A stretch of DNA of 10,735 bases, from assembly GCA_016929465.1 (NCBI GenBank), contig JAFGIT010000279.1, positions 1-10,735 of the forward strand. Direction: 5' to 3'. Position numbers and translations under genes: made by a program. Numbering within the stretch: the first letter of the stretch is position 1; every line of letters starts with the position of its first letter. Source of the stretch: JAFGIT01 sp016929465 [NCBI: Candidatus Coatesbacteria bacterium] (lineage in GTDB: Bacteria; B130-G9). The notes under the pieces are model-generated. The model worked only from the letters and a program-made list of their open reading frames with translations. It was not told the DNA's origin and ran no database searches. This document shows positions 1 to 10,735 of the stretch, piece by piece.

Positions 1-407
1 CCGTTGGATCGGACCACAACTCCATCGGGCGATGGCTTGCCATCGATTAGCATTCGGCCATTCCTGACCTCGACCGAGATGACTCTCGAGCCTTCCGCTC
101 CCTGGATGGTCCCCTCTCCGGACTTACCCGAGATTGTTAGTGAAGCACCTTTCTCCGCTCGAGCAGTCGCCCGCGCCGCGAACGAAGTTAGATGCACACC
201 TATCGGCATGCTGTCAATCGACCCGCGATCGCCGCCAATCCCCGTTAAAGGGGTCGGAAGCAGGATCAGGACCGAAACCATCACGAGAAAGAACACTACG
301 AAAAGCCAGTACCGGGCGGATATGTCGCAATTCAAGCGTCGGGATAATCGCCTGAAAGCGAAGCATCTCCTCTTGAGGAGTGGACTATTGAACCTATTAC
401 AGGCCAT
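1..407 (-). CDS. Membrane-anchored or secreted protein of unknown function, 3' end cut by window
   Basis: Reading the minus strand from ATG at 407-405 gives 135 codons plus two bases, open to the window edge. The N-terminus is rich in arginine (residues 13-32, including RRLSRR). A strong hydrophobic stretch follows at about residues 34-51 (WLFVVFFLVMVSVLILL), so it has a signal peptide or a single membrane anchor with the basic side inside. The exported part is small-residue and beta-rich, with SLTISGKSGEGTIQG and VEVRNGRMLIDGKP, a turn pattern common in extracellular beta domains. I do not recognise the family. The start is uncertain. ATG 407 has no clear ribosome site and overlaps the divergent gene by 20 bases; TTG at 335-333 is an alternative that removes the overlap. 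The opposite-strand frame over this stretch reads as proline/serine-rich sequence without domain character, so I take the minus strand as coding. Confidence 0.72.
   Translation of the reverse strand, partial: MACNRFNSPLLKRRCFAFRRLSRRLNCDISARYWLFVVFFLVMVSVLILLPTPLTGIGGDRGSIDSMPIGVHLTSFAARATARAEKGASLTISGKSGEGTIQGAEGSRVISVEVRNGRMLIDGKPSPDGVVVRSN
375..380 (+). promoter_or_regulatory. Ribosome binding site deciding the TTG start at 388
   Basis: GAGGAG sits seven bases before TTG 388, which is good spacing. It forms the right arm of an inverted repeat, CTCCTC at 367-372 and GAGGAG at 375-380 with a two-base centre. The complement therefore also shows GAGGAG on the minus strand, but no in-frame start of the leftward gene lies at a suitable distance from it. 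Confidence 0.6.
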
Positions 408-1101
408 AGAGCAAACAAGCAATCGAATATTGTCAGTCTTTTCTGAACATGGCTTCAATCATGAGCGAATTCTGAATGAATTCGAACCGGATGAAGCATA
501 CCATTTCTATCGAACAAGACGAAACAAGTTATCTTCCCTGTCGGTAGAAGCATCCCGAAGCGAGTTGCAGGGGAGCGGGACGGCCCGATCCGATGGCGAC
601 AACAGGAAGCGAGAATTCCCATTCGACGTGGTCCCACTGAGCAGCGGTGAGGCCACTGATATGATGAGGCTCTCCGTGACGCTCGAGGCGGCGATAGCAA
701 AGCGGAGTGGAATCCCGACTACTCGGGAGCGGCTTTTCCTCTGGGATCGAGAACGCAGGGATGCGTGTCTTGGCAACGACATCCTGGCCCGCCGTTGCAG
801 CATGGATGACTACCTTTGGGCGATCTATCATCATCTGATGACGAGGGGCATCAGGTTGAGCATCGGGGCTGCCCTGCACATTCTCGACACGAAGCGTCTC
901 ATTGCCCCGCTATATGGCAAACACTGCTTCGCCTCTGCGCCAGGTGACACATCCCCCTGCTATCTCTCTCCCCATGAACTGCCCGATTGTAATGACCAAG
1001 CCGGCATTTCCGCTCGTCTCCTATTCTCCAGAGTGTTCAGCGAATTGAGGTCTCAGATTGAGGGCGCGGACGCAAGTCAGATGGGAGGCAGCATTGGATA
1101 A
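388..1101 (+). CDS. Hypothetical protein, first rightward gene of the tail cluster
   Basis: This 237-aa protein is chosen to start at TTG 388 because GAGGAG lies at 375-380, seven bases upstream. A longer in-frame extension to position 4 would run antisense across the leftward membrane gene and has no coding character there. An in-frame ATG at 322 lacks that support. Coding signs inside are purine-rich first positions and GC-rich third positions. The N-terminus is helical (LLQAIEQTSNRILSVF). A second helical region follows, with SGIPTTRERLFLWDRERRD and then SMDDYLWAIYHHLMTRG. No signal peptide or membrane segment is visible. The end overlaps the next gene by 44 bases, which suggests translational coupling. 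No family is recognised. Its position just before the hub gene fits a tail or tail-assembly role, but that rests on context only. Confidence 0.6.
   Translation: MNLLQAIEQTSNRILSVFSEHGFNHERILNEFEPDEAYHFYRTRRNKLSSLSVEASRSELQGSGTARSDGDNRKREFPFDVVPLSSGEATDMMRLSVTLEAAIAKRSGIPTTRERLFLWDRERRDACLGNDILARRCSMDDYLWAIYHHLMTRGIRLSIGAALHILDTKRLIAPLYGKHCFASAPGDTSPCYLSPHELPDCNDQAGISARLLFSRVFSELRSQIEGADASQMGGSIG
1047..1050 (+). promoter_or_regulatory. Ribosome binding site for the TTG start at 1058
   Basis: GAGG lies seven bases before TTG 1058, inside the end of the preceding gene. The spacing equals that of the gene before it, which supports TTG starts for both. Confidence 0.5.
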
Positions 1102-2005
1102 CGGCGATTTCGAGGCGGTTGCATTTCTGGTGCTTCTCGAGAATGTCGTTGTTCAGGCTCCCAGCGAATTTGTCGGCGTTCGTCTTCCGAGAGAATCTCT
1201 GGTATTTTCTGGGCGACCCGGATGGGCTCCTTTTGGGGGAGCTTCGCATGGAGGGGGACTTCCGCTGAGTGATGCTGCGTCTCCCCGGGTGTTCGATGCA
1301 ATGCAGGAGAGATGTGAGCCCCGCGGATCCAAACATAGAGAGGGATTGACCGAGTCTGTCTGCCAGGTCGCTCTCAATGCCCCTCCTCGCTCTGATAAAC
1401 AGACTCCGCGTGATTCGATTCGCCCCTCGGGCGAAGTGGATCACCAAATCGACCCGGCAGAGGAGGTCTGGCAATCGGAAGGGGACGTGAGCTTTGATCA
1501 AAGCCTCCTTGCCTCCGGACACCATGGAATGCCGGGTGAGCTTTCAGCGCCGCTAGGCCGCGCGGGCAGGGATGCCGCGCCGGGATTTTTGTATGGTCAT
1601 CGCAAGGCCAGAGATGTTAGTCAGGGCTTCGTCGAGAGCGCGGTCCGAGATCTGGAAGACGAGAAGAGCGGACGTAAACCAGTGCTGCCGGACTACTCCT
1701 GGGACACTCCTGATAGACAGGATAGCGAGCTGACCCATTTGGATTCGGAGAGAGACCGTGAGGAGAGCGATTGTGAAGATACTAACTCGACTTCGCCATC
1801 TACTCCCGTCAGCAGAAGCTGGAAGGAGCCACAGGTAGTTCACCCGGTCGCTGGTCGCGGCGCCACAAAAAATAGCAGCCAACGTGATGTGATCGGCGAG
1901 CTCATCAACCGCATTGCAGCGCTGGAGGAGCAGCTTCAAGGGGAGACACTGCATGGCAAGCCGAGCGGAGCAGCTACATCTCAGAGGCTCGCTTTTCCGC
2001 TCTAA
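1058..2005 (+). CDS. Hypothetical protein, partly disordered, with C-terminal coiled coil
   Basis: A 315-aa product from TTG 1058, supported by GAGG seven bases upstream; no in-frame ATG exists near the N-terminus. Residues about 13-60 look folded (DNGDFEAVAFLVLLENVVVQ). The middle, about 75-265, is rich in Ser, Pro, Gly, Asp, Glu and Arg with little hydrophobic content (for example DSERDREESDCEDTNS) and is probably disordered. Residues about 277-297 (RDVIGELINRIAALEEQLQG) carry heptad-like spacing of I and L and are predicted to form a short coiled coil. There is no membrane segment. It overlaps the previous gene by 44 bases and ends 30 bases before the hub gene, so the three are probably co-transcribed. 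A linker, chaperone or minor tail role is possible, but no family is recognised. Confidence 0.6.
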   Translation: MRARTQVRWEAALDNGDFEAVAFLVLLENVVVQAPSEFVGVRLPRESLVFSGRPGWAPFGGASHGGGLPLSDAASPRVFDAMQERCEPRGSKHREGLTESVCQVALNAPPRSDKQTPRDSIRPSGEVDHQIDPAEEVWQSEGDVSFDQSLLASGHHGMPGELSAPLGRAGRDAAPGFLYGHRKARDVSQGFVESAVRDLEDEKSGRKPVLPDYSWDTPDRQDSELTHLDSERDREESDCEDTNSTSPSTPVSRSWKEPQVVHPVAGRGATKNSSQRDVIGELINRIAALEEQLQGETLHGKPSGAATSQRLAFPL

Positions 2006-2025
2006 TGACTGAGAAACCGATAAAC

Positions 2026-2030
2026 AAGGG
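2026..2030 (+). promoter_or_regulatory. Ribosome binding site of the hub gene
   Basis: AAGGG ends five bases before ATG 2036. It lies in the only gap between this gene and the one before (2006-2035), which holds nothing else apparent. Confidence 0.5.
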
Positions 2031-2035
2031 CAACT

Positions 2036-4303
2036 ATGACCGACAATATTGACTCGATATTTGCGAACAGGGGAATGGATGGAATATCTCAACTCGAGAT
2101 TCGCCCCGCGGGTGATGTTGGGCACGAGATCGAGGTCGAATTGCGCAACCTTTCTGGCACTTTCAGTCTCGGCCAGGAATTGATCGTCTCCCTTCTGTCT
2201 GGTCAGGAGATCGCCTTTTCGATAGATGCTCTCAAAGCGGAGAAAAGAGGGAAAATACGAGCGACCACTCTTGCTGGTCATGACAGGCTCTTCGACCTAT
2301 CTCGCGTCTCGCCCGGGCGTGAGCAGATATTTGCCACCCTTTCCTCTGGTGAGCACGCCGAATATGCGAGAAGGACGCGTGATCTGACGCCGCAATATGA
2401 TATCCACATCAGGATCGGGGACCAGTTTGGTCGGCGGGGGTGGTCCTCGGAGGAGATTGCGAGGGAGCTTACAAGGCAGGCGGGGCTGGATGATGTCGTC
2501 CCTGCGATCATGCCACAATGGATTCGTCAGGTCGTTTGCGGTCGCGATGTCAGCTTCCTGGAAGCGATTTTGTCGCTCTTTCGGATTCAGAGGCCGGTCC
2601 TATGGATAAGGGACAATCTCCTTTTCATCATGGATACATCTCTCGTCAGGAACTTCGCTGATGGCGCGAGGATGATCACAAACGGTCTGCTTGCTAAGAG
2701 AATCGTTAATGGCCCCCCTGTTCCCGACGGCAGTTCTTTCCTTCTCAACGGAGGGCTTGGGAAATTCCGGCCAGATAGGTTCCACGGGAAGACATGGACT
2801 GCTTCATTTAATATGAGTTCTGCGCTTCTGAAGGGCGACCTGGAGGTTAGGTCCTCGCTATTGAGGGAGATGCTCTCCGATTGCAGGTGCTATGGTGGCT
2901 ACGAATTCGAGAACAAGATAGAGCGCGGTGAGAGTGAGGTCCATCAGATAAAGGAAATCTGGCTCAAGGACGTCATAGGGAGGCGACAGCTCCTCCTTTT
3001 CTCGCAAGAGAAGGTATATCGCACTTCACAGTGCGCAAACTGGTCAGATGACTCGGCTTGCTGTAATCATGGCATCCGCTGCAACGGGCGGGGCACGGCT
3101 GTAACGTGCGGATGGTATCAGCCAAGGTCTGGTCTCGATGGCGATGAGAAGAGACTAATTCGCTGTGAGGAGTCGCTGCACATCTATGAGAGTCTATCGT
3201 GGGACATCGAGACGCCGAGGGAGCTCGCTAGTCATTCCGTGATTTCTGGAAGCGCGTGGGTCAGGAGAAAGTGGGTTGATTCCGATGGCGACGCGCGCCT
3301 GGTGAGATTGTGGCTCGATCCGATGGAATATCACATCAGGTCCTTCTCGTATGACCCCTTGACCGGCACGCTTGAGCAACAGGTGACGCAGAAGCGAGCC
3401 GCTGTCTTCAGCGATTCGTCGGAATGTGAATTCTGGATGCCGGGCGATTTCCCCGGGGGGGCCTGCGCCCTGGGCCAAGGCGAATGTAATCACTTCGACA
3501 AGTCGTCGGGCGAATGCCGCCTGGGGCTGCCCTGCAACGAATATGGGCGAATTGCCACATGTTCAGAATACACTGGAGCAAAGAAGGCCTGTCCCGGGAA
3601 TTCCGGGTTGTCTAACGAGAAGCCTGGCTACGTGTCTCAATGCCCCGATTGCACTTTGCGCTGGCGGAAGGTGTCATGTGCCAAAACCCCATCTGACATT
3701 CCATCTGATGGAATTTTCAGGACCAGTTTGATTGGGAAGGGATCGAGTAAGCCGGACTCGATCGGGGACATAGTATCCCCCGACGGAGTGGATGCGGAGT
3801 GCATCGTCCAGCAGGAGATAATCCGATATGAGCAGGTCGATGCCAACACATACAGGCGTACCTCCCACAACTCTCGGCTAGTGGGTGGGGTCTTTAGGGC
3901 CAGCTGCGAATCGTACAACCTGCCCTCCTCGAGCGTCCCTTCACATCCAATCGAGCTTCGAAAGATGAGAGTCTCTTCCGAGATCGGGAATTCCGGTGGA
4001 GAGACAAAGCCGGTGCCGCGGGTAGAAAGGTCAGACTCGAATATTGTGGATTGGGGTGACTCTGATAGCGTTTCGAGAAGGGCTTTTGAGAACCTTAGTA
4101 AGGCGGGAGTCGAGGATACATATCAGGTCCCGGGCGAATTCCTTCTGCCTGCAGGCATGCCCATCCTTCCGCCACTGGACTGCGGGAGTGAGCTGCCATG
4201 GTGCCCTTCCCGACCGGGGACGATACATTCCTGCGAGATCAGAATAGCATCGGAGCCGGACGGGCGGGGCTTTTCGAGCACCACTCTGAAGGTCCAATAT
4301 TAA
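2036..4303 (+). CDS. Probable tail hub / tail-tip protein with cysteine-rich insertions
   Basis: A 755-aa protein. Residues 1-120 are beta-rich (LSGTFSLGQELIVSLLSGQE). Residues about 136-200 follow a pattern known from tail hub proteins of the late-control gpD type: a short helix WSSEEIARELTRQAGL, then QVVCGRDVSFLEAILSLF, then a strand LWIRDNLLFIMD. Two cysteine blocks follow. Block 1 has C333, C342/C343, C349 and C358; block 2 has C464, C477, C484, C494, C500, C509 and C519, followed by C536, C539 and C548. The cores match each other: CNHGIRCNGRGTAVTC and CRLGLPCNEYGRIATC. Tail-tip proteins such as lambda gpL bind a 4Fe-4S cluster through four cysteines, so metal binding is plausible but not shown. 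The C-terminus (about 560-755) has no recognised domain. It is 13 bases before the next gene and clearly in the same operon. Hub assignment is by pattern and neighbourhood, and a different tail role is possible. Confidence 0.62.
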   Translation: MTDNIDSIFANRGMDGISQLEIRPAGDVGHEIEVELRNLSGTFSLGQELIVSLLSGQEIAFSIDALKAEKRGKIRATTLAGHDRLFDLSRVSPGREQIFATLSSGEHAEYARRTRDLTPQYDIHIRIGDQFGRRGWSSEEIARELTRQAGLDDVVPAIMPQWIRQVVCGRDVSFLEAILSLFRIQRPVLWIRDNLLFIMDTSLVRNFADGARMITNGLLAKRIVNGPPVPDGSSFLLNGGLGKFRPDRFHGKTWTASFNMSSALLKGDLEVRSSLLREMLSDCRCYGGYEFENKIERGESEVHQIKEIWLKDVIGRRQLLLFSQEKVYRTSQCANWSDDSACCNHGIRCNGRGTAVTCGWYQPRSGLDGDEKRLIRCEESLHIYESLSWDIETPRELASHSVISGSAWVRRKWVDSDGDARLVRLWLDPMEYHIRSFSYDPLTGTLEQQVTQKRAAVFSDSSECEFWMPGDFPGGACALGQGECNHFDKSSGECRLGLPCNEYGRIATCSEYTGAKKACPGNSGLSNEKPGYVSQCPDCTLRWRKVSCAKTPSDIPSDGIFRTSLIGKGSSKPDSIGDIVSPDGVDAECIVQQEIIRYEQVDANTYRRTSHNSRLVGGVFRASCESYNLPSSSVPSHPIELRKMRVSSEIGNSGGETKPVPRVERSDSNIVDWGDSDSVSRRAFENLSKAGVEDTYQVPGEFLLPAGMPILPPLDCGSELPWCPSRPGTIHSCEIRIASEPDGRGFSSTTLKVQY

Positions 4304-4307
4304 GGAG
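4302..4307 (+). promoter_or_regulatory. Ribosome binding site overlapping the hub stop codon
   Basis: AAGGAG shares its first two bases with the TAA stop of the hub gene (TAAGGAG) and stands nine bases before ATG 4317. This implies that ribosomes finishing the hub help start the next protein. Confidence 0.65.
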
Positions 4308-4316
4308 CGCCGTATA

Positions 4317-6449
4317 ATGGGAGGGAGCCGGTATGAGATAGCCCGAGCAGTAGCCGGGGTGGGGCATCGCCTTTTCGTGAGTATCGATGGGGAGCTGGTG
4401 GAAGGCTCCGCTGCAGAGGGCGATAGGGCGCTCCTATTCCGCCCTTTCAGTCACATCGATAGCCGAATAAAGGTTGCGGGAGGCCTGCCGGTCAAAGAGG
4501 CCGCAACGGTCGAATGCGACGAGGAGGAAACGCGATCCCTGATGCTCTGTCTCGATGGGGCGGAATGCGAGCCCCCATACACCGGCTGGCTTGGGCGTCT
4601 GCTGGTCTTGGAGAATGGGTTCATTCCGCGGCTTTCTGGGATTCCGCATGACCCGAGATTTTCAGGCTATAGGAAGGCCGGCGGGTGCCACTTGATATGG
4701 GCCCACGGGCAATGCGCTGCGCCAGCACAATGCAGGAATGCATACGGCAGCCTCCCATGTAAAGCCCCCATTGGATTTACCTGCGATAGGTCATATTCGA
4801 CATGCAAAGACCGCATCAATTTCGCACCATGCCCCCACACGTTCGGAGAGAGCCCTTGCTTGGCCGATCCGCAAGACGAGCCTTGTCAGCACTCGGTCGC
4901 CACCTGCAGAGCTATCGGGAGAGGCTCGATTGGGGCCATGGGGGAATCTCTATACGTACCCTTTGGAGGGTGCGATAACACGTACGACTCCTGCGAAGCA
5001 CGAGCTTCATTCATGCCTTTCACTCCGGAATTCCATGTTCACTGCGAGTTGAGATCGAGCATCCCGCTTGATTTCTCTCTTCATGCAGTTCAGGGCCGAA
5101 GGTTCTTCTGGCTGGGCAGCTCGCAGGAGGAAGTCCCTCGCGATGTGGGGAGTGAAGAGGAACACTACGTCATCTCGCGGGTATATATATCAGAGAGCAA
5201 TTCGCTCATTCTCCCTCGCTCATCATCGGCCCACAAGGTCCCGACCGTTCCCCGTTCGGCGCTAGTCGAGAAGATGCGATCTGTATCGGACGCAACAGGG
5301 ATAGGGGTGGCCGACATCTCGTATTCGGCCTCAGCTTCACGGGGCGGGACAGGCTCTCATCACCTGGCCTCCGTGCAATGGATAACCTCTTCATCAGGGG
5401 AGGAGAGCAATCCGGCTGACATTGTCATCAATTCATCTCCAGATGGAGTGGATTGGTCCGACGATGGCAGAGTCGTCCTACAGGACTGCATTGATATATC
5501 AGACGCTGGTGTCGCCGGCCGCCCTGCTTCAGTTGACAGGATCGAATACCGCGCGCCCAGGCCACTCCAATCGCTCGAGGGCGACATCTCGATCTATGCT
5601 CTCAAAGGGCACATTAGCTTTCGGAATGAGCCGGTCGGGGACACCGGACACAGGCGAGTCTATGATAAGATGTCCATAAGGCTCTCGCGCGACGGGGAGG
5701 AATGCACTTTTGATCCGACCTTCATTGATGGAGAATACATTCCGCCTTGGCCCGGAGAGCCCGACGGGCAGGTTCGAGTGCTTCCTTTCTTTGAAGATGG
5801 GACTCTAATCTCAACGTTCTGCTTCCGATTCGGTGCATCCGGGTGGCCGACGGGAACATACGAAATCGTTCTCGAGAAAGGTCGGTATTGGGCCTTCATC
5901 CCGCTATCGATGGTTGTAGCGCACCGAGACGGGAACGACGGCGATGAGGTGATATGCGTTCCCGTGCTGGTGAGGTACACATCCTGGGATGGCCTTGTCT
6001 TCAGTAACGGCACAATAGTGAAGGACAGATTCGGACTGTTTATGACCTGTGCTCATTCCATTCCGGTCTGCAGGAGTTGGTCTGGTGCGGCGTGCTTGCG
6101 TGATGATGGCTTCTGCGGAGCGAATGATGGTGGTCGGTTCGTATCTCTATTTCCTCATTGCGATGGTCAGGGCACCGGTGGCGCCCCAGGAGGGCAGAGA
6201 TGGTCGCGGTATGAGCCGTGTTCCCATTTCAGACCACTCGGTGGTTTTTCCCACGCGCGCACTCAGGGACCGCCTTACGCTCTGGCGGGCTGCCTCCAGC
6301 GGGGGGAGTTCGCCTGCAAGTTGAAGAAGGCAGGGTACAGGGGGCAATGGTGTGCGAGGCAAGACTGCCCAGGCTTCACACCGAGAGGGCTTTGGGGTTC
6401 GAGCGGCATCAAAGCTCTAAATCTGAGAACCGACAATATTCATACATAG
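4317..6449 (+). CDS. Cysteine-rich tail-tip protein with repeated C-x6-C motifs
   Basis: A 710-aa protein starting at ATG after a strong AAGGAG. The N-terminal 110 residues look beta-rich (GHRLFVSIDGELVEG). A dense block holds twelve cysteines at 124, 133, 139, 148, 156, 163, 172, 181, 190, 197, 219 and 226. Within it CDRSYSTCKDR, CQHSVATCRA and CDNTYDSCEARASF share C-x6-C. This resembles the C-terminal cysteine motif of minor tail proteins of the lambda gpL / BR0599 type, as I recall it. Residues about 230-560 are cysteine-poor and beta-rich. A second block has C578, C585, C593 and C600 (two further C-x6-C pairs), then more cysteines to the end. The stop is TAG at 6447. The frame continues through a second TAG at 6480 straight into the next gene, which is in the same frame. 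Probable virion tip component; exact role unknown. Confidence 0.65.
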   Translation: MGGSRYEIARAVAGVGHRLFVSIDGELVEGSAAEGDRALLFRPFSHIDSRIKVAGGLPVKEAATVECDEEETRSLMLCLDGAECEPPYTGWLGRLLVLENGFIPRLSGIPHDPRFSGYRKAGGCHLIWAHGQCAAPAQCRNAYGSLPCKAPIGFTCDRSYSTCKDRINFAPCPHTFGESPCLADPQDEPCQHSVATCRAIGRGSIGAMGESLYVPFGGCDNTYDSCEARASFMPFTPEFHVHCELRSSIPLDFSLHAVQGRRFFWLGSSQEEVPRDVGSEEEHYVISRVYISESNSLILPRSSSAHKVPTVPRSALVEKMRSVSDATGIGVADISYSASASRGGTGSHHLASVQWITSSSGEESNPADIVINSSPDGVDWSDDGRVVLQDCIDISDAGVAGRPASVDRIEYRAPRPLQSLEGDISIYALKGHISFRNEPVGDTGHRRVYDKMSIRLSRDGEECTFDPTFIDGEYIPPWPGEPDGQVRVLPFFEDGTLISTFCFRFGASGWPTGTYEIVLEKGRYWAFIPLSMVVAHRDGNDGDEVICVPVLVRYTSWDGLVFSNGTIVKDRFGLFMTCAHSIPVCRSWSGAACLRDDGFCGANDGGRFVSLFPHCDGQGTGGAPGGQRWSRYEPCSHFRPLGGFSHARTQGPPYALAGCLQRGEFACKLKKAGYRGQWCARQDCPGFTPRGLWGSSGIKALNLRTDNIHT

Positions 6450-6485
6450 GCAGCATCCCATTTTCGGCAAACGGATCCATAGAAA

Positions 6486-7505
6486 ATGACAGACATCACT
6501 CTATTCAAGCCACGATTGATCGCCACCCGCCCGGCTGCGGGCTCCACCAATGTCTCCGGGAGTCTGATCGGACTCGATGTGGTTGACGATGATTACCCGG
6601 ATGACCTTCACTTCGGTGCTCTCGATGGGGGTTCTCTCTATCTCGGGGTGAATTCTGGAGACGGCAGATTCGAGGCAATCATCAGGGACGGTGAAGTCCA
6701 GAGGGACTCCACGGGGCGAAGATTCGCCGCAATCGTGGTCCCTCGCATAGCTTTGACCGGGGCTGAGCTCACCGGGACCTTCCTGACGGGCAGATTCCGG
6801 CAGCGCAGCTCGATACGATATATCCCCTCCGAGTTCTTCCCTGACGGGCAAGAGGTGGGTGTGCGAATCCGCATGAGGGATGTATACGGCTACGAACTCG
6901 ACGAGACTTTCTACTTCACGATGCACGAATGGCGAAATCTAGAGTGGCCGATTTTCACCATAATGACCCCGGACGGTATCGGCCCTCTATCCGCCATACC
7001 TTTCGCATGGTATTCGCGTGGGTCGATTGTGGATATACCGCTGACGCTCAAATGGGGTGATGAGGATTCCCTACCTCTGAGCCTCGATGACGCCCTGCTC
7101 AGGGTCGGACCCACAAGCGCTAATTCTCAGGGGAAGGAAGTCATCGAGAATGGATACTGTCTATTCGTGGAATATGGAGACGGAGACTGGCAGGCGCTAT
7201 CGCCGGGGGCCGACATCCATTTGAGGCGATTCGCATCAAGCGAGGGACGAGATATTGCTGTGCGTCTCGCGCTACCCGCGGAGGCCGCGACAGATGGACA
7301 GATGTTATTCGGCGTCTCGATAATACCCATCCGAGCATCCCTTTGCGGCGCTCGTCTTTGCGGCTGCGAGACTACAGGATGTTATACGGGATTTTTATAT
7401 GAAAGAACAAATAAAGCTGCTTATTTATACATATATGCTTCAGTGATGTCACCCGGGACGGAGGAGTATCTCCGCTCCCATTTCTTGAATCCGCCAGGCG
7501 CATGA
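6486..7505 (+). CDS. Tail protein with N-terminal Ig-like domain and C-terminal cysteine cluster
   Basis: A 339-aa product from ATG 6486. The opening, RLIATRPAAGSTNVSGSLI then GLDVVDDDYPDDL, follows the usual start of bacterial Ig-like domains (Pro-Ala-x-Gly-x-Thr-x-Val, then a strand with Asp-rich turn), about residues 7-70. Two further beta-rich stretches follow (about 75-150 and 165-285). Near the end C287, C292, C294 and C299 (CGARLCGCETTGC) form a compact group fit for metal binding or disulfides. The final 35 residues are encoded by unusually AT-rich DNA. The start is weakly supported: no AGGAGG-like site precedes it, only GGATCC at about 6473-6478. The same frame is open upstream apart from TAG at 6480 and 6447, so it could instead be the C-terminal part of the preceding protein if TAG is read through. 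Neighbours imply a tail-tip role. Confidence 0.6.
   Translation: MTDITLFKPRLIATRPAAGSTNVSGSLIGLDVVDDDYPDDLHFGALDGGSLYLGVNSGDGRFEAIIRDGEVQRDSTGRRFAAIVVPRIALTGAELTGTFLTGRFRQRSSIRYIPSEFFPDGQEVGVRIRMRDVYGYELDETFYFTMHEWRNLEWPIFTIMTPDGIGPLSAIPFAWYSRGSIVDIPLTLKWGDEDSLPLSLDDALLRVGPTSANSQGKEVIENGYCLFVEYGDGDWQALSPGADIHLRRFASSEGRDIAVRLALPAEAATDGQMLFGVSIIPIRASLCGARLCGCETTGCYTGFLYERTNKAAYLYIYASVMSPGTEEYLRSHFLNPPGA
7391..7440 (+). promoter_or_regulatory. AT-rich patch with TATA-like boxes, possible internal promoter
   Basis: Inside the end of the Ig-like gene the DNA abruptly becomes AT-rich. TTTTTATAT lies at 7392-7400 and TTATTTATACATATATG at 7421-7437; these resemble archaeal TATA elements (TTTATATA). 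AAATAA at 7409-7414 and TTATTT at 7421-7426 form a small inverted repeat with a six-base loop. The patch is 120-170 bases before the fibre start and could drive it separately. It may equally be just local codon bias. Confidence 0.25.
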
Positions 7506-7540
7506 CGAGCGACGTACCGGCTTTCGATGACGTTAGACAT

Positions 7541-7547
7541 AAGGAGG
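7541..7547 (+). promoter_or_regulatory. Strong ribosome binding site of the fibre gene
   Basis: AAGGAGG lies ten bases before ATG 7558, within the 52-base gap after the preceding TGA. It is the best match to the consensus in the window, in line with a highly expressed structural protein. The rest of that gap (7506-7540) shows no other signal. Confidence 0.7.
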
Positions 7548-7557
7548 AACCTGATTA

Positions 7558-10353
7558 ATGGCATACCCCGACAATCCGGAATTCATTGATTTTGTTGACG
7601 AGCGGACCTCACCGGCGGAGATAGAGGGAGAGGAGCACTCCATCTCGCCTGGCGTTTACACCTACTCCCTCAATGAGGTCCCAGATACAGAGTACTCGAT
7701 ATCGTGCACGGGCGACGTGAACGGATCATATACCGTCTCTTTTACGAACACCGCCCCCGGATCGGGCTGTGTTTATGTAAATCCGCTCAACGGCAACGCT
7801 CTCCACTGCGCGACCGACGCGTCGGACTCCCTAACCTGGTCCTATTGGGGGCGCGGGACAGCAAACAACAAGCGAATGCTGGAGCAATACCGGGAACCTA
7901 TCGAGGACGTGCACAAGGTCGCCCGGCAGTTCTGGGTTTCAGCAACGTCACCTTCCTCACAGGGAGTCAAGATAGCAAAGGGCAACGTCGAGATAGGGGG
8001 GAAACTCGTCGAATACAATGGCGGGGTGCAGAGCTTCTCCTCGGTGACATTTGAGAACACCGGCTTCTTCAAGGCCGTCCGGCTGGGATTGAATTCATCC
8101 GGATCGCTGGCCTACTCGGAGGGTGTAGAGGCCGCGTCCAGGATTCTCTGCGGGGACCCACCTTCGATGCCAGAGAGCAAGACCCTTGCCATCATATTCC
8201 TTCAGGATGGAGTCGATATATCCGAGGAGGCAATTGTCAACACCTTGATAGAGGTCCCATACCACTCCGGCGATCCTGACTCGGACGGCGTGGGCGACGT
8301 GGCCAAGTATCAATATAATACAGGTGTAGTATCGGGAGACGCCGTCTGCTTGGTGTCTCCGAATACTGTGGGGAAAGCCGACGCTGACGAGGACAGCAAG
8401 GTGCCTGCAATCGGCTTTGTCGAGCAGATACTCGACGAGACCACATGCACAGTGAAGAGCTCCGGGACATTCAGCTTCAGCGGCAAGAGCACCACCTATG
8501 ACGCTCTTGCGTTCGGACAACAGGTCTATTTGAGCACCGTCGCGGGACGGATAGCCCAGACCCGTAACCAGGTCCCCGATGAATGGGACCAACCCCTGGG
8601 GATCGCTCTGAGCTCGACCAAGATTCAAATTACTATAGGCGCCGCAAACAAGAACAAAGCCGGTGGCGGGGGCGATGAGCCTGGCCCTGAGGGGGGAAAA
8701 TACAAGTACCTCTCGGGCGTAGCGGAGGGAGAATTCGTCTATCTAAAGTCAGATGGGGAGACCGTGGATGAGGCCAGAGCCGATTCATCAGGCACGATGC
8801 CTGCAATCGGTGTGGTTGATGAATTGATAGACGCGAGCTGGTGCATCGTCAAGAACAACTACCAATGGGCGATATCGGAACATGGGGGAATAACTCCGGG
8901 TGGGCTCGTAGCCGGGTCCGCCGGAGACGTCTTCCATATATCGGTAACCGCCGAGGGCGAGGTCCAGACATCGCAGTCGATAAATCCCGACCATTACTCG
9001 CAAATGGCCTGCAAGCAAATTGACGAAAGTGGGAGCCAGTTCCTCATATGTTGCGGTCCTGCGCTGAAGCCAGAGCCGGTCGACCCAGATGACGGGTACG
9101 ACTATAATTGCGCGAGCGATGTCGGTGTGGGAGATGCGGTCTATCTCGACACGACTGGAGTTGCGCGGAAGTCGGATGCGACCGATGGCAGCAAGTGTAA
9201 TCCCAAAGGCATCGTTAAGGCTGTGAATGCAGCAAACAGCCGCTGCAATATAGTCTGCCCTCCTAATGTGTTCGATCCCACGACGAACTACAGCGGCGGC
9301 GATTATTTTCTCAATCCAGCGGAATCAGGAGGCTATGCTCTAAGAAGCAATATCCTATTCAGTCCGGGGCATTGGCTCGTCCGTATCGGCTGGGGAAGAG
9401 GCGCCTCGCTCGGCGGCATCCAGGTTGACATCAAGAACTACGGTATGTTCGGTGATCCGGGAGAGGATGACGGCGGAGATTCCGACCCGAAGCCCGGACG
9501 CGAGACAGGCTGCTATACTGCCGGTTCAAATGTCACTCCAGGCACCTGGGCCGAGCTGATGCCTTCCCCATCCGCAGTTCAGGCCACGAGTGCCGACTGG
9601 GGCACGGGGACGCATGTCCTTGGCCCGGTGTTGAGCACTGAATACAATCCTAGCCTCTGCAAATGGGTCTGGAAGGTTCTTACGAGGGGACTGCATGGGA
9701 GCGGGTACTCCCCGGGCGTTAGATACTTCTGCACTTCGGCCGGCGCCATCGCAGCGAAGGTAGCTTTCGGGAAATACATCAAGCTAGCAGGCATCGGCCA
9801 AGAGGACGGCCAGCTACTGGTCTGCCCCGGACCTGTTGATTACCTGGACCCGGACATCGGGGACCCAATTCCGGTTACGGGCTTCGTCGAGATTCTCGAC
9901 CCGGCACCCGTCCATGGCCAATCTGATAAGATCAGGGACTGGGATGACTCAAGCTCCGGCTCACCGAGGTCATCGAACTGGGTCAGTAGGCCGGTTCTAT
10001 GCGAACTGCCTACAGTTATCAAGGCGATTCATTTTCTTGGCACATCGACGGGGATCGGTTTGGGTTCCTATTCGCTCCTCGATGTCTGCCGCCTCAGCGA
10101 CGGGGCCAGTCTGCTCTCCACCCCAGCCAAAATCGTGGCAACAGGTGATGGGACAAGGGGGAACACGCTTTCTCAGGATACCACCTATGGGATTTCGGCT
10201 GGTCATATTGCTGCCGTCATAGATGAGAGCAAGCTCCCGGTTGCCGCTGGAGATGCCATCTACTGGAAGGTGACAATCGATGATGGCTCCGGATTCACGA
10301 CAGCACCATACGAGTTTGGAATTGTCTTGAGCAAGTATGGGGTGATGAGCTGA
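7558..10353 (+). CDS. Large multidomain tail fibre / receptor-binding protein
   Basis: A 931-aa protein with a strong ribosome site. Residues about 35-115 contain VYVNPLNGNALHC and WSYWGRGT, a pattern (V-x-P-x-x-G-x-[IL]-x-F, then YxGRGT) frequent near the N-terminus of phage fibres. Residues about 135-235 (KIAKGNVEIGGKLVEYNGG, then LAIIFLQDG) match a fibre appendage domain of the form 'aG-x-v-x-v-nGk-x-v-x-Y'. From 253 to 759 four pairs of a short repeat occur, marked by GD/GE-x-VYL, a later P-A-I-G-x-V and a final C-x-V. Pairs are separated by Gly/Pro/Asp linkers at about 362-383, 502-515 and 629-651. Residues 760-931 are an unrecognised beta-rich domain (LPVAAGDAIYWKVTIDDG) and are the likely host-facing tip. 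There is no membrane segment or catalytic motif. It ends at TGA 10351-10353, whose last base begins the next ATG. Confidence 0.72.
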   Translation: MAYPDNPEFIDFVDERTSPAEIEGEEHSISPGVYTYSLNEVPDTEYSISCTGDVNGSYTVSFTNTAPGSGCVYVNPLNGNALHCATDASDSLTWSYWGRGTANNKRMLEQYREPIEDVHKVARQFWVSATSPSSQGVKIAKGNVEIGGKLVEYNGGVQSFSSVTFENTGFFKAVRLGLNSSGSLAYSEGVEAASRILCGDPPSMPESKTLAIIFLQDGVDISEEAIVNTLIEVPYHSGDPDSDGVGDVAKYQYNTGVVSGDAVCLVSPNTVGKADADEDSKVPAIGFVEQILDETTCTVKSSGTFSFSGKSTTYDALAFGQQVYLSTVAGRIAQTRNQVPDEWDQPLGIALSSTKIQITIGAANKNKAGGGGDEPGPEGGKYKYLSGVAEGEFVYLKSDGETVDEARADSSGTMPAIGVVDELIDASWCIVKNNYQWAISEHGGITPGGLVAGSAGDVFHISVTAEGEVQTSQSINPDHYSQMACKQIDESGSQFLICCGPALKPEPVDPDDGYDYNCASDVGVGDAVYLDTTGVARKSDATDGSKCNPKGIVKAVNAANSRCNIVCPPNVFDPTTNYSGGDYFLNPAESGGYALRSNILFSPGHWLVRIGWGRGASLGGIQVDIKNYGMFGDPGEDDGGDSDPKPGRETGCYTAGSNVTPGTWAELMPSPSAVQATSADWGTGTHVLGPVLSTEYNPSLCKWVWKVLTRGLHGSGYSPGVRYFCTSAGAIAAKVAFGKYIKLAGIGQEDGQLLVCPGPVDYLDPDIGDPIPVTGFVEILDPAPVHGQSDKIRDWDDSSSGSPRSSNWVSRPVLCELPTVIKAIHFLGTSTGIGLGSYSLLDVCRLSDGASLLSTPAKIVATGDGTRGNTLSQDTTYGISAGHIAAVIDESKLPVAAGDAIYWKVTIDDGSGFTTAPYEFGIVLSKYGVMS
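8314..9834 (+). repeat. Four paired protein repeats within the fibre gene
   Basis: Eight diverged copies occur as a/b pairs at residues 253-299/314-361, 384-431/448-501, 516-566/578-628 and 653-708/717-759. The 'a' copies share a Gly-Asp/Glu turn, a VYL-like strand, a glycine turn, an Ala/Asp stretch and an IGxV strand ending C-x-V: for example GDAVCLVSPN with PAIGFV, GEFVYLKSDG with PAIGVV, and GDAVYLDTTG with PKGIV. The 'b' copies end in strands such as KIQITIG, QFLICCG, IQVDIKN and GQLLVCPG. The resemblance is at protein level; no long identical DNA repeats were noticed. Confidence 0.6.
10341..10346 (+). promoter_or_regulatory. Ribosome binding site of the last gene
   Basis: GGTGAT ends six bases before ATG 10353 and lies inside the end of the fibre gene. 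With the TGATG stop/start overlap this indicates coupled translation, so the downstream frame was designed to be a protein start even though it is now interrupted. Confidence 0.5.
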
Positions 10354-10735
10354 TGACCTATGAGGACGCTATATCATACGAGTATGCAGATGCTGGCCGT
10401 GTGGACCATCCTGTGGGCCTGGCAGCGCTGCAGGCAGCCATCGATTGAGCCATAAGGGCCAGGAACCAGGCGAATGACCGGAACCCATATTGCTTTCTCT
10501 ATGGCAAGGCATCTCCGTCAAACTACACTACTGAATTCAGGCACGGATTCGAGCCCATATTCATTGATACCGCTGGTAATCTCCAATAGGGATGTGCTGT
10601 TGAATTGATAGATGCTGGAGATTGCCCGATCATTGGTGATATAATCGATGATTAGGGAAAACTCTCGAGTGGAAGCGTTGAAGTTATTGAGATTTTGTAC
10701 ACTCTTGCCGATTCGAGCGGCTACTATGGCGGATA
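10353..10735 (+). pseudogene. Fibre-associated gene with three in-frame stops, 3' end outside window
   Basis: ATG 10353 overlaps the fibre stop by one base. The frame reads 31 codons, then TGA 10446-10448 (codon 32), TAG 10587-10589 (codon 79) and TAG 10653-10655 (codon 101), and stays open to the window end. Between the stops the sequence keeps a protein-like character with no frameshift: HPVGLAALQAAID before the TGA, then GFEPIFIDTAGNLQ before the first TAG, then CAVELIDAGDCPIIGDIIDD before the second, then SVEVIEILYTLAD. The central part weakly resembles the fibre repeat (VYL-like strand, glycine turn, then P-x-IG-x-I). Each stop is one C-to-T change from CGA or CAG, though that is true of any TGA or TAG. 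The options are a recent pseudogene, local sequence error, or stop-codon readthrough or recoding. TGA clearly ends the gene before it, so general TGA recoding is unlikely. Confidence 0.6.

Follow-up and report, generated by a model that had tools for sequence, protein, structure and literature searches.

A probable pseudogene carrying three in-frame stop codons at the end of a conserved gene cluster in a little-known bacterial phylum

The DNA analysed here raises the question of how a reading frame can keep coding-like codon use over 127 codons that include three in-frame stops, and whether such a frame is a living gene, a dead one or no gene at all. The window (the whole stretch analysed, 10,735 nucleotides) is the complete contig C421 of a bacterial MAG, G000 (3.19 Mb, 423 contigs, 86% complete). 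Thus, the frame, which lies at the end of the window, is incomplete at its 3' end. The phylum is thinly sampled, by four genomes (G000 to G003, one of them titled Candidatus Coatesbacteria).

The interrupted reading frame

The features of the frame are as follows.

10353-10735, plus strand: coding-like frame interrupted by stops, 127 codons, open at the contig end
10339-10346, plus strand: GGGGTGAT, a Shine-Dalgarno-like stretch upstream of the ATG, identified by eye
10446-10448, plus strand: in-frame TGA at codon 32, read from the sequence
10587-10589, plus strand: in-frame TAG at codon 79, read from the sequence
10653-10655, plus strand: in-frame TAG at codon 101, read from the sequence

The start ATG (10353-10355) overlaps by one base the TGA (10351-10353) of an ORF for a 931-aa protein. 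This overlap, and the TGA, TAG and TAG at codons 32, 79 and 101, are present in the sequence as the initial annotation had described them. Its claim of protein-like sequence over the 127 codons without a frameshift also stands, as codon use is coding-like across the four pieces that the stops delimit. The codon-preference model was built from 20 other G000 contigs, whose 113 ORFs of 200 aa or more supply 56,654 codons. Under this model the score of the frame is 0.159 per codon, compared with a median of 0.199 and a 5th percentile of 0.064 for genuine windows; 99% of wrong-frame windows fall below 0.140. The other forward frames of the region score -0.067 and -0.172 per codon, and the best reverse frame 0.07-0.08. 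With a second model, for which four genes of the window served as the training set, the frame scores 0.121 per codon. The GC content of the frame is 0.491 (10% of windows are equally low), falling to 0.438 in its last 146 bases (2.9% of windows equally low). Two promoter-like sites occur at 10605-10645, versus 0.8 expected.

The conserved cluster upstream

Upstream of the frame lies a series of ORFs, most of which have counterparts in other genomes of the phylum.

3-458, minus strand: 5' part of a divergent left-flank gene, whose G001 counterpart (31% identical over 160 columns) has a SpoIID domain
1058-2005, plus strand: ORF of 315 aa, matching in position a 318-aa ORF of G003
2036-4303, plus strand: ORF of 755 aa in the conserved cluster, 56-63% identical in G001-G003
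4317-6449, plus strand: Cys-rich ORF of 710 aa in the conserved cluster, with 52% identity to its G001 counterpart
6486-7505, plus strand: ORF of 339 aa in the conserved cluster, identity 50% in G001, 51% in G003 and 43% in G002
7558-10353, plus strand: ORF of 931 aa, directly upstream of the interrupted frame, with orthologues in all four phylum genomes

The 755-aa protein is likewise found in all four genomes (the G001 copy as two pieces on two contigs). The G003 orthologue of the 931-aa protein comprises residues 1-410 only, where its contig ends. The 315-aa and 318-aa ORFs are alike over a short stretch near their starts, in a comparison that is not significant. On the left flank, G001 has the divergent SpoIID-domain gene and then a MurG-like glycosyltransferase, and the ORFs on the left flank of G002 and G003 are alike by eye to those of G001. 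That the cluster has the same left neighbour in all four genomes points to inheritance at one chromosomal place and not to a free virus; in each of G001-G003 it is split over two contigs, across which we take it to be contiguous.

The cluster is unannotated (1058-10353 of the window). It comprises the 755-, 710-, 339- and 931-aa ORFs, an M15 peptidase (G000 and G001) and an ORF of about 70 aa (three of the four genomes). The 710-aa protein has many Cys-containing motifs that are conserved, by eye, in G001, which suggests metal binding or disulphides. An extra ORF lies between the 710- and 339-aa genes in G001 (193 aa, L027:3210-3791) and in G003 (135 aa, L029:1489-1896); it is absent from the window.

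No Pfam families were found for the 755-, 710- and 339-aa proteins. PDB sequence searches, run with the 755- and 710-aa proteins and with an alignment of the 931-aa protein, returned nothing convincing (the best matches were nanobodies, E 0.0036), and predicted structures were too poor to help (mean pLDDT 28.4 for the 931-aa and 41.7 for the 339-aa protein). Relatives of the 931-aa protein outside the phylum numbered zero in the other 94 genomes searched, in phages and in a pattern scan of IMG/VR. Its match to Phage_cement_2 (PF09956; E 0.0089, 16.8 bits) lies below the cut-off of 24. The label "fibre" that had been given to this gene is thus unproven, its support consisting of weak matches to cement-like or unknown families. 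The cluster could be a domesticated phage-derived structure.

The slot downstream of the 931-aa gene

In G001, the gene immediately after the 940-aa orthologue of the 931-aa protein encodes an M15 peptidase (E 1.3e-33 to a PHROG endolysin family), and a 70-aa ORF comes next. In G002, the 931-aa orthologue is followed by an ORF of 117 aa (136 aa if an earlier start is used); after this stands a 70-aa ORF, which is 48% identical to that of G001. The slot after the 931-aa gene is therefore variable; the G003 contig ends before it. The neighbours to the right of the ~70-aa ORF also differ among G000, G001 and G002. No counterpart of the interrupted gene was detectable in the slot of G001 or G002.

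The G000 copy of the ~70-aa ORF, present in three of the four phylum genomes, lies near the start of contig C215. Upstream of it is an M15 peptidase that shares 62% identity with the G001 enzyme over 124 residues. From this gene order, C215 is likely the downstream continuation of C421, with one broken gene extending across both. The two contigs have no 15-base word in common and are separated by a gap. At the start of C215 is the last part of a coding-like frame, which carries one internal TAG (36-38) and terminates with TAG at 345-347; this piece scores 0.093 per codon and is only moderately coding-like (P=0.052 for 39-345). If C215 continues C421, G000 has at least 741 bases between its 931-aa gene and its peptidase that G001 lacks.

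Search for relatives of the frame

We searched for relatives of the frame using its translation with X at the stops, a way of placing it that the initial annotation had put forward for protein databases and viral genomes. No convincing relative was obtained in genomes, phages, IMG/VR, plasmids, Pfam or PHROGs. In G000 the frame matched itself alone (E up to 10). Across 193 genomes, 25 others gave weak matches at E<=1 (best E 0.0119; G003 0.44), none of them convincing. The same holds for 50,697 phage records, for a pattern scan of IMG/VR, for plasmids and for PHROGs, and there was no Pfam match. For the piece on C215, phages and IMG/VR gave no convincing relative, the Pfam match was to DotY (E 0.12), its 12.5 bits falling short of the cut-off of 27, and matches in 4 other genomes among 98 (E 0.1 or lower; best E 0.0048, spanning 30 residues) were not convincing.

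GFEPIFIDTAGNLQ had been claimed to resemble the repeat of the upstream protein. This likeness is not significant: aligned locally to the 931-aa protein, the frame scores 45, a value that 31 of 500 shuffles reached; against the repeat part of that protein, the score was reached by 24/500. The 117-aa ORF of G002, alike by eye, was rejected as a homologue (58 of 500 shuffles reach the score), as were the two 70-aa ORFs (184/500 and 406/500).

Origin of the stops

We consider the frame at 10353-10735 to be probably a pseudogene, derived from an accessory gene of narrow distribution that was seen in G000 alone. Within the chromosomal cluster, this accessory gene would have been flanked by the conserved 931-aa gene and the M15 peptidase gene, and it would have been inactivated through nonsense mutations. 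Ribosomes would still start at 10353 via translational coupling and stop after 31 residues, and no full-length product would be made. The stops are presumably present in the organism and not confined to the assembly. The product may once have been useful, and the gene appears to have been gained in G000 rather than lost in the other genomes. An uninterrupted ancestral version is presumed; that no intact relative was found counts against this reading.

The AT-rich end of the frame fits what is expected of neutral decay. The suggestion that the gene was killed very recently is upheld for the killing, which is the best reading, but not for its recency, since three stops correspond to about 71-96 random substitutions over 381 bases. 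The absence of frameshifts points the other way: none was seen in the C421 frame or in the C215 piece. The chance of seeing no frameshift under random change is 0.005-0.148 for three stops and 0.0009-0.078 for four, under assumed mutation spectra and indel rates. Their absence therefore speaks against neutral decay, which is uncomfortable but not decisive.

Alternative explanations

The main rival to a pseudogene, which we regard as unlikely, is an assembly or sequencing error, in which the organism carries an intact gene and the stops come from bases miscalled where coverage is low, next to a contig break. Each of the four stops is no more than 290 bases from a contig end (the end of C421 or the start of C215). 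A study of bacterial assemblies (PMC11017572) reports that low-quality reads mainly raise internal stops and not frameshifts, an effect that matches a frame kept intact. However, random substitution at 1% produced at least three stops in just 1 of 388 simulated 127-codon windows, and at 5% in about 2%. Among 37 other G000 contig ends, 24 have a best frame that is coding-like (at least 0.12 per codon); at least three stops occur in 3 of these, but 15 have no stop and 6 have one or two. This contig-end argument against error is not final, because many ends exist and this one was picked for its oddness. A poorly sequenced contig end, one of the options in the initial annotation, is thus unlikely, with the 1% simulation counting against it.

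It is less probable still, at perhaps a tenth of our confidence, that the region is not one gene, consisting instead of a 31-codon ORF followed by non-coding DNA that scores like coding sequence by chance. In favour of this, no piece has a convincing relative. From first to fourth, the pieces that the stops delimit score 7.7, 6.1, 1.5 and 4.3. Beyond the first stop, the frame reaches just P=0.028 when set against wrong frames. The third piece (21 codons) is weak (P=0.152), with frame +1 tying and one reverse frame scoring higher (3.7). Against it, the other two forward frames are negative over the whole region. We also applied a strict control for the pattern, with every piece required to be positive, to 223 kb on 20 contigs, using thresholds set after the finding had been seen. 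It gave 12 matches in 43,168 overlapping tests, all of them 93-100% within an open frame of 100 codons or more. In windows less than half covered by such a frame, none of the 3000 overlapping tests matched. A cruder control is more favourable to this rival, as 21 of 1588 interior windows had some frame scoring at least 0.15 with at least three stops. The frame is therefore probably, but not certainly, a former gene.

Read-through or recoding, in which TGA and TAG are decoded as amino acids to make longer products, appears very improbable. The frame does persist without a frameshift, and a tRNA-Sec (anticodon TCA) is present in all four phylum genomes (L069-L072), so selenoproteins are likely in this lineage; in G000, TCA is confined to tRNA-Sec. 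However, two different stop codons would need to be decoded, and both are ordinary terminators. The 106 sampled G000 ORFs end in TAG (43), TGA (40) or TAA (23), so that TAG and TGA together end 83/106. Within the cluster, the 710-aa gene ends with TAG and the 339- and 931-aa genes with TGA, near the ends of the G001 proteins. In-frame continuation past stops was seen for 5 of 189 TGA, 4 of 169 TAG and 4 of 88 TAA codons (13/446 in total), with no codon enriched. No CTA or TTA anticodon is found among 38 tRNA matches in G000, an incomplete set (one Leu, no Cys tRNA) from an incomplete genome; one truncated tRNA gene reads, by eye, CCA. PylS does not exceed its cut-off of 178 bits in any of the four phylum genomes, each of which has weak matches (best 32.5 bits). 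RNA folding after the stops is no better than for shuffled sequences (for the TGA, z 0.81 over 65 nt and 0.25 over 45 nt; for the two TAGs, z 1.44 and 0.23). An Rfam scan of the window and C215 gave one sub-threshold match, at 7054-7095, far from the stops. Read-through of the frame, and the longer variants that had been envisaged from it, are thus unsupported.

Slighter again is the prospect that the gene was imported from a phage with an altered code and was dead on arrival in its host. Phages that read TAG as glutamine are documented (PMC9523058), and an import of this kind fits the stops without frameshifts, the lack of relatives in the phylum and the AT-rich interior. However, the donor would need to have reassigned both TAG and TGA, codon use is near that of the host, and no match was found in the 50,697 phage records or in the pattern scan of IMG/VR. 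Just as remote is an accessory structural or lytic gene with conditional stops, kept in frame and extended only when TGA and TAG are both suppressed.

Significance

Read as a pseudogene, the broken gene alone is of little weight. It serves as a marker for the variable slot in which a conserved, unannotated cluster, present in all four genomes of a little-known phylum, ends. It is also a reminder that, for stop-ridden frames at the contig ends of MAGs, a check against reads should precede any proposal of recoding.

Comparison with known systems

The Phage_cement_2 family (PF09956) has a weak, below-cut-off match in the upstream 931-aa protein and none in the interrupted frame. With genes for selenoproteins, the frame shares an in-frame TGA in a genome that has tRNA-Sec, but it differs from them in that no hairpin beyond chance follows the TGA and in its two TAGs, which Sec cannot explain. 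In-frame TAGs within a coherent frame are also a property of phage genes with reassigned TAG (code 15); unlike in those, one of the stops here is TGA, TAG and TGA terminate normally, and no suppressor tRNA was seen. Relative to bacterial pseudogenes, the frame is unusual in having three or four stops without a frameshift and no intact relative found, but it resembles them in its coding-like sequence, proper start, premature stops, intact neighbours and occurrence in one genome only.
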